A DNA stretch of 64,000 nucleotides. It comes from Cutaneotrichosporon cavernicola. Its lineage: Eukaryota; Basidiomycota; Tremellomycetes; Trichosporonales; Trichosporonaceae. The translations under genes were made by a program, and so were the position numbers. The notes beneath the pieces are model-generated. The model saw only the letters and a program-made list of their open reading frames with translations. It did not search any database and was not told where the DNA came from. Shown here piece after piece: positions 41,737-46,365 of the stretch. The stretch covers positions 248,001-312,000 of the forward strand of contig NC_083394.1 of assembly GCF_030864355.1 (NCBI RefSeq), given 5' to 3'. Every line of letters starts with the position of its first letter. The first letter of the stretch is position 1.

Positions 41737-42562
41737 CCTAGTATTTGAGTGTCCCCAAATGCAATGTGTTGAGGGGTGGTACGGGTGGAGGTGGAGGTGG
41801 AGGTAGATCTGTTGGACTAGGTCGAGGGGCGAGGTTTTGAGGCGCGAGAGGGCAGGCGCGTTAGATCAGAGTGCGACGCCGTCTGAAGATTCATGTCCGC
41901 GGTCCGAGCGCATCAGCCGATGCTTCCGTCACCCGAGACGTCACACGTCAGCCGTCCGCCTTTGAACAGAATGCTGGTAGATCAAGAAGGCCATTACTTG
42001 AACTACGTAGTTACGAAGGTACAAGTGGATCTGTGGCTGGGGCTGTGGAGAGCCTGGGGCCACAGTGCGGGGGCGAGTAAAATACGTTGCAGCGCCTTCT
42101 ACTTGACCAGCGAACAGGCGCCTGGCAGGTTGCACGGCCTTTATGGTATCGGCTGATTATTACAGGCCTTTAACCCGCTGGATAAACGAGATTGGTGACT
42201 CACGTGACTAGACCATAGACCCTAGTAAAGGTACGGCCGTATTGGCCGACTCGCGACTTTCGAGTCGATGGCGACATTGGTTAGCTTTAGAAAGTTAAGA
42301 AACTTGGGTTTGGTTGGATTCCTGTTTCTTATTCTTTCAACTTGTCTCATCTGTTTAACATCCCAACTTTGTGTGCGGAGCCCATTTGCACCGCGTGGTC
42401 TTGCCGACTATCCCTCGCCCTAAATACTAGCTCCCCTCCAGCAATTCCAGCTCGACCAGCAAGCTACTCTTCGATCTCTGGCTCACGCCTTCAACCTCGC
42501 CAACTCTAGCTCACTACGCTAGCCCTCGATTGCTCCGGTTCCCTTCCTTCACCGTCGCCACA
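41737..42562. promoter_or_regulatory. Upstream region of the aspartokinase fusion gene
   Basis: Holds a GGTGGA repeat after the previous stop (41782-41803), the composite TGACTCA/CACGTG site listed separately, and a C/T-rich leader before the ATG at 42563. No gene is seen. Confidence 0.5.
42196..42206 (+). promoter_or_regulatory. Composite Gcn4-type and CACGTG site
   Basis: TGACTCACGTG: a perfect TGACTCA (42196-42202), the Gcn4/Cpc1 target of general amino acid control, overlaps a CACGTG E-box (42201-42206), the core bound by Cbf1-type factors in sulfur amino acid control. It lies 361 bp upstream of the aspartokinase-alanine aminotransferase start. Binding is inferred. Confidence 0.55.
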
Positions 42563-45500
42563 ATGCGCTCCCAAGCGTCCGATGCATCAACGCCGCGCTC
42601 GGCTACGCCGACATACGGCGCCGACGAACGGCTCAAGGCCAACTCGACTGATGAGAGGGTGCCCTACGTCGTCCAGAAGTATGGCGGTACATCGGTCGGA
42701 AAGAGCCTCGATTCTATCACGGGTATCGTTGAGTGAGTAGCAAAGCGCAGCTCGCAAGCGCGAGCTCGGTCGTGTGCTTGGGCCTCTGGGCATCACGGCG
42801 ATCACCTTCCCTTTGCCTTCGTCTCTTCCTCGCCTTCCTGGCGTTCCGTGGTCACCTCATCGCGCCCCAAAACCCCATTCCTAACCCCAGATCGTACCTC
42901 GCGTCCCACCGCGTCGTGGTAGTATGCTCGGCCCGCTCGACAGAAACCAAGGCCCTCGGCACGACCAACCTCCTCCTCCAAGCCTCTCGCGAGGCGTTAC
43001 AACCCGCCTCGGCGCGCCCCACCGCAAGCGGCTACCAGACGCCGCTGTACCCGAAGCGGGTCGGCAGCGGCTACTTCTCGCAGAGCATGGTGTCCTCTCT
43101 CTCCAGCTTGAAGGACGACGGACGCAGCTCGAGCCCGAGCCCGTTCCAGCCGTCCGGCCGTGCCCGCGCCAACACCGGTAGCAGCGGGACCGAGACGCCC
43201 TCGGAGTGGGCCAACGGCTCTAATGAGACGTTTGAGGCTGGCTTCAACGCCACGGTCGACACTATCAAGCGTGGACATATTGCCGCCGCGCATAAGGCGC
43301 TCAATCGAGGCCCTCTGCGCGACGAGCTCGAGGACGAGATTGAGCGCGACTGTGAGGCACTGCGCGCGTTCCTGAATGCTGCCAATGTGAGTGTCTGCTG
43401 TGTGTGCTGTGTTTGTGGTGTGGCAGACGTCTGCTGTGTGGCGGTGACATGGTTGCATGTGGTACCGGAACGCGGGTGGTGTTGGGTTAGCGGTGTGTCG
43501 TGAAGCGAACAGCCCGGTCGGGGTATGGTGGCACGCGTGTTCCCGCAAGCCTCGTGTTTGTCACGGTCTGCTTCTGCGTTTCCAGAGTCCCGCGTGGAGC
43601 GCGGCGTCTGTTCTGCTTTCCGGCGGAGGGGTGTCTGCAGCTGTGTTACAGCAACACGCCGAGCCTAGAGGTGGACATCATGAACTCTGGGGAATGTTGT
43701 CAGATGGTCGTACCATCTTCGGGCCACAGCTATTCACCGCCTGTCGGATCCACCCCAGCCCACTCGGAGCCACGGCTGACCCCAGATCATCGACGAGATC
43801 TCACCTCGGTCGCAGGACTCTATCATCGGTACCGGCGAGCGGCTAGCGTGCAAGATTGTCGCGGCCGCATTGAGGGATCGCGGTATCGACTCTGAGCTTG
43901 TGGTTCTGGACAACATTGTCGACCAGTCGATGACGTCGGCCATGGATGCAGCGCTCACGTCCTCGGGCGACCAGGGTGTGTCCCAGCTCGGCCAGACCTT
44001 TTATGACGAGCTCTCCAGACGCCTCGGCGACAGGTTGCGCGAGTGTGGCCAGCGCGTCCCAGTTGTCACTGGTTTCTTTGGGCCCGTTCCCGGCTCGCTC
44101 CTCGCTCAGATCGGGCGCGGCTACACAGACCTCTGCGCTGCGCTGTGCGCGGTCGGTGTCGAGGCCGGCGAGCTCCAGGTGTGGAAGGAAGTCGACGGCA
44201 TCTTCTCGGCCGACCCTCGCAAGGTGCCCGGCGCGCGTCTTGTGCCGTCCATCACGCCTGACGAGGCCGCTGAGTTGACGTACTACGGCTCCGAGGTTAT
44301 CCACCCCTTCACGATGGAACAGGTCATTCGCGCCAAGATCCCCATCCGCATCAAGAATGTCGAGAACCCCAAGGGCTCGGGCACCATCATTCTTCCCGAG
44401 TCGGACCTCACTGCGAGCGTCGACGGACTCGACCGCCTCCCCACGGCCGTGACGATCAAGGACCGGATCTTGGTGCTCAACATCCACTCGAACCGCAAGA
44501 CCATCTCGCACGGTTTCCTTGCACGCATCTTCGGCACGCTCGACCGCGCTGGCGTCGTGGTCGACCTCATCTCGACGTCCGAGGTGCACGTCTCGATGGC
44601 GCTGCAGGATTTTGGCAACGCGCGTCGCCTCGAGCGCTTAGTTAAGGACCTCGAGAAGATTGGCGAGATCACCATCTCGCGCGACATGGCCATTCTTTCG
44701 CTCGTCGGCAGAAACATGCGCAACGCCATTGGTTCGGCGTCGCTCATGTTTAGCGCGCTCGCTCGCGCCCAGGTCAACCTCGAGATGATCTCGCAGGGTG
44801 CCTCCGAGATTAACATCTCGTGTGTCATAGAAAACAAGGACGCCGTCAAGGCGCTAAATGTCATCCACGACTCGTGCCTCTCGCACAAGCCGGTTGGCGT
44901 ACGCAGTGGCGACGGTCGCGTCAAGGCGCTCACGCGCGCGTCCGTCAACCCTGCGGTGCTGCACGTGGAGTACGCAGTGCGCGGCGAGCTGTCGCTCAAG
45001 GCCGACGACTTCACGCACAGGCTCCAGGCGGGCGACAAGAGCCTGCCCTTCGACAAGATCCTGTACGCCAACATCGGCAACCCGCAGGAGCGCGAACTCA
45101 AGCAGCAGCCGCTCACGTACTGGCGCCAGGTCGCCGCTCTCGTCGAGTACCCCGAGCTCATGGCACACCCAATGGCGGCCGAGCTGTTCCCCTCTGACGC
45201 GATCGCCAAGGCTGGCCAGCTCGTTGAGGAGTTTGGCTCGGTCGGAGCGTACACTGCCTCCAAGGGCTCGCTGCCGATCCGCAAGCGTGTCGCGCAGTTC
45301 ATCGAGAAGCGCGACGGCTTCCCGGCCGACCCTGAGGAGATCATCCTCACGGGCGGCGCAACGCCTGCTGTCGCCATGATCATGGACCTCGCCCTGTGCC
45401 CCGGTGACGGCGTCCTTATCCCCATCCCCCAGTACCCGTTGTACACCGCGACGCTCTCCCACTTGCAGGCGACGCCGGTGCCGTACCACCTCGACGAGAA

Positions 45501-46365
45501 GCGCGGGTGGGCGCTCAACGTCGCGAGCCTGAAGAATGCGATTGCGCGGGCCAAGACTAACCCCTCGCTCCGCCAGCTTAAGGCGCTTGTTGTCATCAAC
45601 CCTGGCAACCCGACCGGCTCGTGCCTCTCCGAGGCCGACATGCGCGAGATCGTCCAGCTGTGTTACGACGAGAGCCTTCTGCTCCTCGCCGACGAGGTGT
45701 ACCAGAACAACGTGTACGACCCCAAGCGACGCCCCTTCGTGTCGTTCAAGAAGGTGCTCCGCTCGATGCCTGAGCCTGTGGCGAACGGCGTCGAACTCGT
45801 CTCGTTCCACTCGATCAGCAAGGGTGTGTCGGGCGAGTGCGGTCGCCGCGGTGGATATGTCGAGAGCGTCAACCTCGACCCGGAGGTCGATGCGCTCCTT
45901 CTCAAGATGGCCAGCATCAACCTCTGCGCGCCCGTGCAGGGCCAGGTCGGCGTCGACCTTCTCGTCTCGGCGCCACCCGTCGGCGCTCCCTCGCACGAGA
46001 CATTTGCGAAGGAGAGCGCAGTGATCCACGAGGGCATGAAGGCGCGCTCCAAGCTCATGGCTGCCCGCCTCAATGCTCTCCAGGGCGTCGAGTGCCAGCC
46101 CGCCGACGGGGCGATGTATCTCTTCCCGTCGCTCCGGTTCCCGCCCAAGGCCGTCGAGGCTGCACGCAAGGCCAACAAGGAGGCCGACACATTTTACGCC
46201 CTAGCCCTGCTCGACGCTACGGGCATCTGCGCCGTTGCAGGCTCGGGCTTCGGACAGGAGGACGGCACGTACCACCTGCGCGTGACGACGCTGTGTCCCG
46301 ACGCCGAGGAGATGATGTCGCTCATCGAGGGATTCCACAAACAGTTTATGGCAAAGTACGCATAA
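42563..46365 (+). CDS. HOM3-ALT1: Aspartate kinase-alanine aminotransferase fusion protein
   Basis: Exons 42563..42732, 42891..43386 and 43786..46365 encode 1081 residues. Residues 1 to about 598 are a complete aspartokinase: KYGGTSVGK (39-47), VVVVCSARSTETKALGTTN, ELQVWKEVDGIFSADPR, YYGSEVIHPFTMEQ and two ACT domains (about 455-600; DLISTSEVHVSMAL). After a linker of some 10 residues, residues from about 605 to the end are a complete alanine aminotransferase: VEYAVRGEL, IPIPQYPLYTATL, NPGNPTG (827-833), LADEVYQ (Asp858, Tyr861), the PLP lysine in SISKG (Lys901) and substrate arginine (Arg1054). No intron, stop or suitable ATG separates the two halves. Aspartokinase phosphorylates aspartate toward homoserine, threonine and methionine; the aminotransferase interconverts alanine/2-oxoglutarate and pyruvate/glutamate. 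Each half is certain; that they form one translated polypeptide rests on the open frame. Confidence 0.9.

Follow-up and report, generated by a model that had tools for sequence, protein, structure and literature searches.

Does the locus at positions 42563 to 46365 of the analysed window, a stretch of 64,000 nucleotides on contig C2 of the Cutaneotrichosporon cavernicola genome (20.2 Mb, 8 contigs), encode a single protein that combines an aspartokinase (AK) with an alanine aminotransferase (ALT), and what could such a combination be good for? To our knowledge, AK, the first step to threonine and methionine, and ALT are consecutive in no textbook pathway. An earlier reading made from the sequence alone (hereafter the sequence-only reading) had proposed that the two enzymes are fused in frame. 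The spliced gene model, the Pfam domains and the conserved motifs confirm this proposal and show the cores of both enzymes to be intact. With a probability of roughly 0.6, we favour the explanation that the gene encodes a bifunctional, probably cytosolic enzyme, in which a Hom3-type AK of 587 residues is connected through a flexible linker to a complete ALT of 480 residues.

The spliced product comprises 1081 amino acids (116.3 kDa), its sole stop codon is the terminal one, and GT-AG borders are found at both introns (Table 1). The length given for the third exon by the sequence-only reading was correct. Pfam assigns AA_kinase to residues 36-413, ACT to 464-515, ACT_9 to 526-584 and Aminotran_1_2 to 689-1070, i.e. 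an AA_kinase domain followed by the two ACT domains that characterise the AK class, and no homoserine dehydrogenase domain was found by Pfam in the fused protein. The first half matches aspartokinases among the PDB sequences, and its assignment to the AK fold rests on Foldseek matches, which include a threonine-sensitive AK. Among the motifs that we take to be conserved in AKs (K-Y/F-GGTS, GRGxTD and G-S/A-E-V/I-HP), the latter two are present in all 11 fused sequences described below, while KYGGTS was found in three (window, P0001, P0002), the other eight being without that end of the protein. A close known counterpart is the fungal Hom3-type AK, for example that of Cryptococcus neoformans (P0017), which shows the same AA_kinase-ACT-ACT order and the same catalytic motifs and is 70% identical over the AK half. 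However, it stops 16 residues past the shared SCL, whereas the fused protein continues into ALT.

Table 1. Features of the AK-ALT gene, with positions as counted in the window.
Feature	Position	Strand	Remark
Exon 1: AK N-terminus, KYGGTSVG = residues 39-46	42563..42732	+	ATG at 42563; P0001 shares start and length
Intron 1, GT-AG	42733..42890	+	
Exon 2: AK, Ser/Pro-rich insertion at residues 99-169, low model confidence	42891..43386	+	
Intron 2, GT-AG	43387..43785	+	
Exon 3, whole, 2580 nt	43786..46365	+	
Exon 3, AK part: remaining AA_kinase and two ACT domains	43786..44880	+	
ACT domain within exon 3	44509-44664	+	Pfam
ACT_9 domain within exon 3	44695-44871	+	Pfam
Linker, 14 codons, residues 588-601, without in-frame ATG or stop	44881..44922	+	
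Complete intronless ALT, residues 602-1081 (480 residues)	44923..46362	+	
PLP lysine K901 codon	45820	+	
R1054 codon	46279	+	
Stop codon TAA	46363..46365	+	

The ALT half begins by homology at residue 602 (KALTRASVNP), upstream of the start of the Pfam match. Among the PDB sequences, fused residues 601-1081 align with residues 20-498 of human ALT2 and residues 596-1080 with 15-498 of barley ALT; according to these matches, the ALT is complete and starts at about residue 602. Identity to solved ALTs amounts to 42-44%. The half shows the class I fold, the PLP lysine, NPGNPTG, the D-x-x-Y motif and the substrate arginine of the ALT class, and in search rankings it groups over its full length with ALTs ahead of AAT and other class I enzymes. 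As the sequence-only reading had stated, the PLP lysine K901, NPGNPTG (827-833) and the substrate arginine R1054 are intact, and they are kept in 11/11 fused sequences. The same is true for the stretches ADEVYQ, SISKG, GECGRRGG and HLRVT.

Between the last conserved AK residue (L587) and the first of ALT (K602) lie 14 residues; hence, the gap between the conserved regions is short as claimed before, although it is longer than the approximately 10 residues given then. The second ACT domain contains an in-frame ATG at 44785, and the following one is found only at 45160, so that an ALT started separately at an AUG would be without its first 79 residues. This rules out the production of a separate complete ALT from an internal AUG, in agreement with the earlier claim. 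In the 11 fused sequences, linkers of 12-38 residues with divergent sequence are embedded between conserved flanks, IH(D/E)SC(L/I) before and KALxxxxVNP after; similarity is restricted to members of the same genus (Cutaneotrichosporon or Vanrija) and, in part, to the pair P0004/P0005. Such variability in length and sequence fits better to a flexible tether than to a conserved allosteric joint. In the structure model, the linker has a pLDDT below 50 at residues 590-598 and the whole-model pTM is 0.52, so the arrangement of the domains relative to each other is unreadable from the model.

The fusion is not restricted to one genome. When the whole fused sequence was used in a protein search, ten other clusters with AK and ALT in the same order appeared among the best 120 of 414 matches. 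P0001 from Cutaneotrichosporon sp. HIS471 is 98% identical and likewise 1081 residues long, P0002 from Vanrija albida is 73% identical, P0003 from Vanrija humicola is 73% identical over 89% of the fused protein, and seven metagenome clusters (P0004-P0010) are 75-80% identical over 75-78%. These seven proteins begin within the residues equivalent to exon 3 and read through the junction. For HIS471, the genome project took mapped RNA-seq reads as hints for gene prediction, according to the accessible part of PMC10568926. P0003 (960 aa) is without YAVRGEL and its neighbours at the ALT start, a stretch present in the remaining ten fused sequences, and its model starts at a methionine that corresponds to an internal one of P0002; in this annotation, an intron was probably called falsely and the start misplaced.

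It could be objected that the fusion reflects an assembly error, a missed stop codon or intron, or adjacent genes read as one. However, independent genomes and metagenomes share the in-frame fusion with different linkers; unequal linkers that all keep the frame are typical of translated linkers and provide a strong argument against assembly error. Furthermore, the sequence-only reading had named two separate genes in related genomes as evidence that would contradict it. Such genes were looked for in the best 120 rows each of 414 (whole protein), 7986 (ALT half) and 3803 (AK half) matches, and no unfused close relative was found among the matches listed: the fused rows listed for the AK half and the ALT half are 78-86% and 73-77% identical, respectively, whereas the unfused rows of the three lists reach at most 74% to the AK half and 61% to the ALT half. 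The shared frame in ten other clusters thus rules out an artefact of assembly or gene model for practical purposes, and we regard it as hardly conceivable.

The other Tremellomycetes among the matches listed have the two enzymes apart. Among the matches listed, AK without ALT was found in Cryptococcus, Kwoniella, Papiliotrema, Dioszegia, Naganishia, Tremella and Cryptotrichosporon argae. If contig size is taken as a proxy for contig identity, the two genes reside on different contigs in 10/10 Tremellomycete species in which AK and ALT each fall into a one-member cluster (Kwoniella shivajii, K. shandongensis, K. newhampshirensis, K. dendrophila, Kwoniella sp. DSM 27419, Cryptococcus sp. DSM 104549, Tremellales sp. 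Uapishka_1, Naematelia encephala, C. argae and Mrakia frigida). Five further pairs involve multi-member clusters; four of them differ in contig size (C. depauperatus, Kwoniella sp. CBS 9459, K. dejecticola, T. mesenterica), whereas the fifth, Kwoniella sp. B9012, shows the same contig size of 18.2 Mb for both. Hence, ALT was probably no old neighbour of AK. Under the names Trichosporon asahii and Apiotrichum, no AK, fused or single, was found among the named cluster members in the best 120 rows of the whole-protein and AK searches; the unfused ALT of T. asahii is P0127. C. argae possesses two unfused ALTs (P0139, P0140) on equal-sized contigs, which are sisters in the ALT tree and represent a separate ALT duplication; the N-terminus is leader-like in one of them and not in the other.

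The remaining genome of C. cavernicola was also searched. With the AK half as query only its own locus was matched, i.e. a second Hom3-type AK was not found in the genome search; two further AA_kinase-family matches on C5 and C3 were not hit by this query. The sequence-only reading had asked whether a separate ALT gene exists, which is the case: an intact unfused ALT with two introns is encoded on the minus strand of contig C6 (start codon near 1145968) and is 57-71% identical by exon. Elsewhere, the ALT query gave only weak matches of 26-31% identity on C1 and C4. The unfused ALT begins MAMRSMRAPLLRPFSFLSQFPRRTM, judged by eye as a mitochondrial leader, possibly with an inner start, and the fused N-terminus MRSQASDASTPRSATPTYGADERLK is, also by eye, not leader-like. 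From these N-termini, the fused ALT may be the cytosolic form, with the unfused ALT serving mitochondria. The genome also encodes two AATs whose catalytic motifs are intact, which disfavours the idea that the fusion replaced a missing AAT. An AAT-like frame at C3:2906654-2907619 (G000; L022, L025), 38% identical to an intact AAT, has diverged in the stretches with the catalytic asparagine, aspartate, lysine and arginine and looks, from its sequence, like a catalytically dead AAT relative. A Gcn4-type TGACTCA is located at 42196-42202, 367 bp 5' of the fused gene, and another at L006:2318-2324, which places the element ~330-370 bp 5' of both ALT-encoding genes, fused and unfused. It is not enriched in the window (9 compared to 10.06 expected), and at this chance level it gives no evidence for Gcn4-type control.

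The age and origin of the fusion were addressed with trees whose rows were chosen from the matches listed. In both trees, the fused proteins are united in one clade. In the AK tree (39 rows, several outgroup branches long), this clade (100/99) is nested among the rows of Tremellales/Trichosporonales. In the ALT tree (45 rows, of which 11 are fused and 34 single), the clade (100/100) is placed outside the other sampled Tremellomycete ALTs except Mrakia and has a stem branch of 0.45 with and 0.85 without outgroups. Uniting the fused with the unfused Trichosporonaceae ALTs was rejected by the AU test with outgroups (p 1.15e-05), also with Cryptotrichosporon added (p 0.000238), and more weakly without outgroups (p 0.0106). 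A recent origin of the fused ALT by copying of its unfused Trichosporonaceae counterpart is disfavoured by these tests, with a long-branch effect being possible; the plain reading would be an old second ALT that survived only in fused form. Nevertheless, given the long stem, a younger copy with accelerated evolution would be conceivable. Introns are absent from the fused ALT, while the unfused ALT has two; an RNA-mediated copy would fit to this, as would intron loss. The position of the fused clade apart from the intron-bearing unfused ALT (P0123, orthologue of the C6 gene) is of no help to a simple retrocopy story. The fusion, which the sequence-only reading had wished to see dated, is at least as old as the common ancestor of Cutaneotrichosporon and Vanrija, and most likely it arose by a single event in such an ancestor. 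There, an intronless and perhaps RNA-derived ALT copy may have arrived 3' of AK, and loss of the AK stop codon would have captured it.

Do both active sites work, as the bifunctional reading implies? In Saccharomyces cerevisiae Alt2, all catalytic residues are kept and ALT activity is nevertheless lost (accessible parts of PMC5960717 and PMC3458083), which means that motifs alone are no proof of activity in the fused ALT. With this precedent, and with a second intact ALT in the genome, the ALT half could be enzymatically dead and retained as a dimerising or stabilising appendage. We consider this quite unlikely, given the unaltered catalytic motifs in 11/11 fused sequences and the invariance of 241/467 columns. 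Across all 45 ALT rows, 119 columns are invariant. Five columns set the fused clade (10 or 11/11) apart from the single ALTs (at least 32/34), namely 657 Q to E, 697 R to K, 705 I to F, 748 S to T and 973 L to M, and the AGASAG loop reads GGATPG in 9/11 and GGATPA in 2/11 fused sequences (window, P0001). At the sequence level these changes are mild, although the clade-wide loop change and the long stem indicate that the specificity may have shifted.

Such a shift leads to another reading, according to which the fused aminotransferase is no longer mainly an ALT and supplies aspartate, made from oxaloacetate and glutamate or alanine, to AK, which would make the two steps metabolically consecutive. 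Barley ALT reportedly makes aspartate at ~10% of its alanine efficiency (Duff 2012, as cited in the accessible part of PMC5960717), and the exchanges at 657 (after GNPQ), 748 (in the AGAS loop) and 973 would, with the long stem, be in line with it. However, two intact AAT genes already exist in the genome, the nearest structural and sequence relatives are ALTs and not AATs, and clean differences between the fused clade and conserved single ALTs are limited to five columns. An aspartate-supplying function is therefore very unlikely in our view.

Alternatively, threonine bound by the ACT domains, or the oligomerisation of AK, could regulate the attached transaminase; the sequence-only reading had likewise suggested that the two halves might share regulation or oligomeric state. 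The conserved ACT domains directly 5' of the linker and the threonine-sensitive AK among the fold matches point in this direction, but the low-confidence linker with its variable length and sequence does not, and no conserved inter-domain contact was identified in the model; control by threonine appears unlikely. In a more general form, a composite enzyme could couple the entry into threonine and methionine synthesis with cytosolic amino transfer, physically and perhaps allosterically, by a threonine-tuned ALT or an aspartate feed to AK, which we consider possible, yet doubtful. The favoured bifunctional enzyme would be made as one polypeptide from one mRNA, and both of its active sites would work. 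Its benefit might lie in the expression from one gene and a fixed 1:1 stoichiometry, whereas the two reactions would be largely independent and meet only in the shared glutamate/aspartate nitrogen pool: ALT would swap nitrogen between alanine and glutamate, AAT would pass it to aspartate, and AK would commit the aspartate.

AK has been joined to other enzymes elsewhere, and all such fusions that we found or know of pair it with enzymes of the same pathway. ThrA and MetL are bifunctional AK-homoserine dehydrogenases, and diaminopimelate decarboxylase is, like ALT, PLP-dependent. AK-homoserine dehydrogenases of this kind and those of plants resemble the AK-ALT protein in carrying AK and a second amino-acid enzyme; however, their partner catalyses a later reaction of the AK pathway, two steps further on, while ALT uses no AK product. 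Such fusions are also reported from oomycetes and a diatom (PMC2705460, PMC3901274, in their accessible parts). The bacterial fusion of AK with diaminopimelate decarboxylase, named in the accessible text of PMC2705460, is similar as well, but its partner is a different enzyme, which belongs to the lysine branch of the AK pathway. Known ALTs (human ALT2, 3IHJ; barley, 3TCM; fungal Alt1) share the motifs and align with the fused ALT over nearly the full length; in contrast to them, the fused ALT sits behind AK without a separate start codon or leader and belongs to a deep clade apart from the others. Among the search matches, P0037 from Manduca sexta (999 aa) is annotated as "alanine transaminase" and contains a second PLP-enzyme domain (PF01212); either ALT has been fused in an unusual manner here too, or the gene model is a merged one.

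In the literature searched, which includes the accessible parts of PMC10568926, PMC7026411 and PMC12820176 and had subscription papers mostly outside its scope, no description of an AK-ALT fusion was found, in line with the statement of the sequence-only reading that it knew of none described for fungi. As far as our searches show, the sequences are deposited but unremarked. The named database entries for the fused proteins read aspartokinase or aspartate kinase, alanine transaminase, or hypothetical protein, and these single-enzyme or hypothetical names call for caution in annotation. AK and ALT are linked only through the glutamate/aspartate nitrogen pool, and no AK other than the fused one was found in the genome. 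With the AK-ALT protein, a fusion of non-consecutive enzymes becomes directly accessible to testing. Moreover, it is a rare shared derived character within the Trichosporonales and may have a bearing on metabolic models of the oleaginous yeasts in this group.
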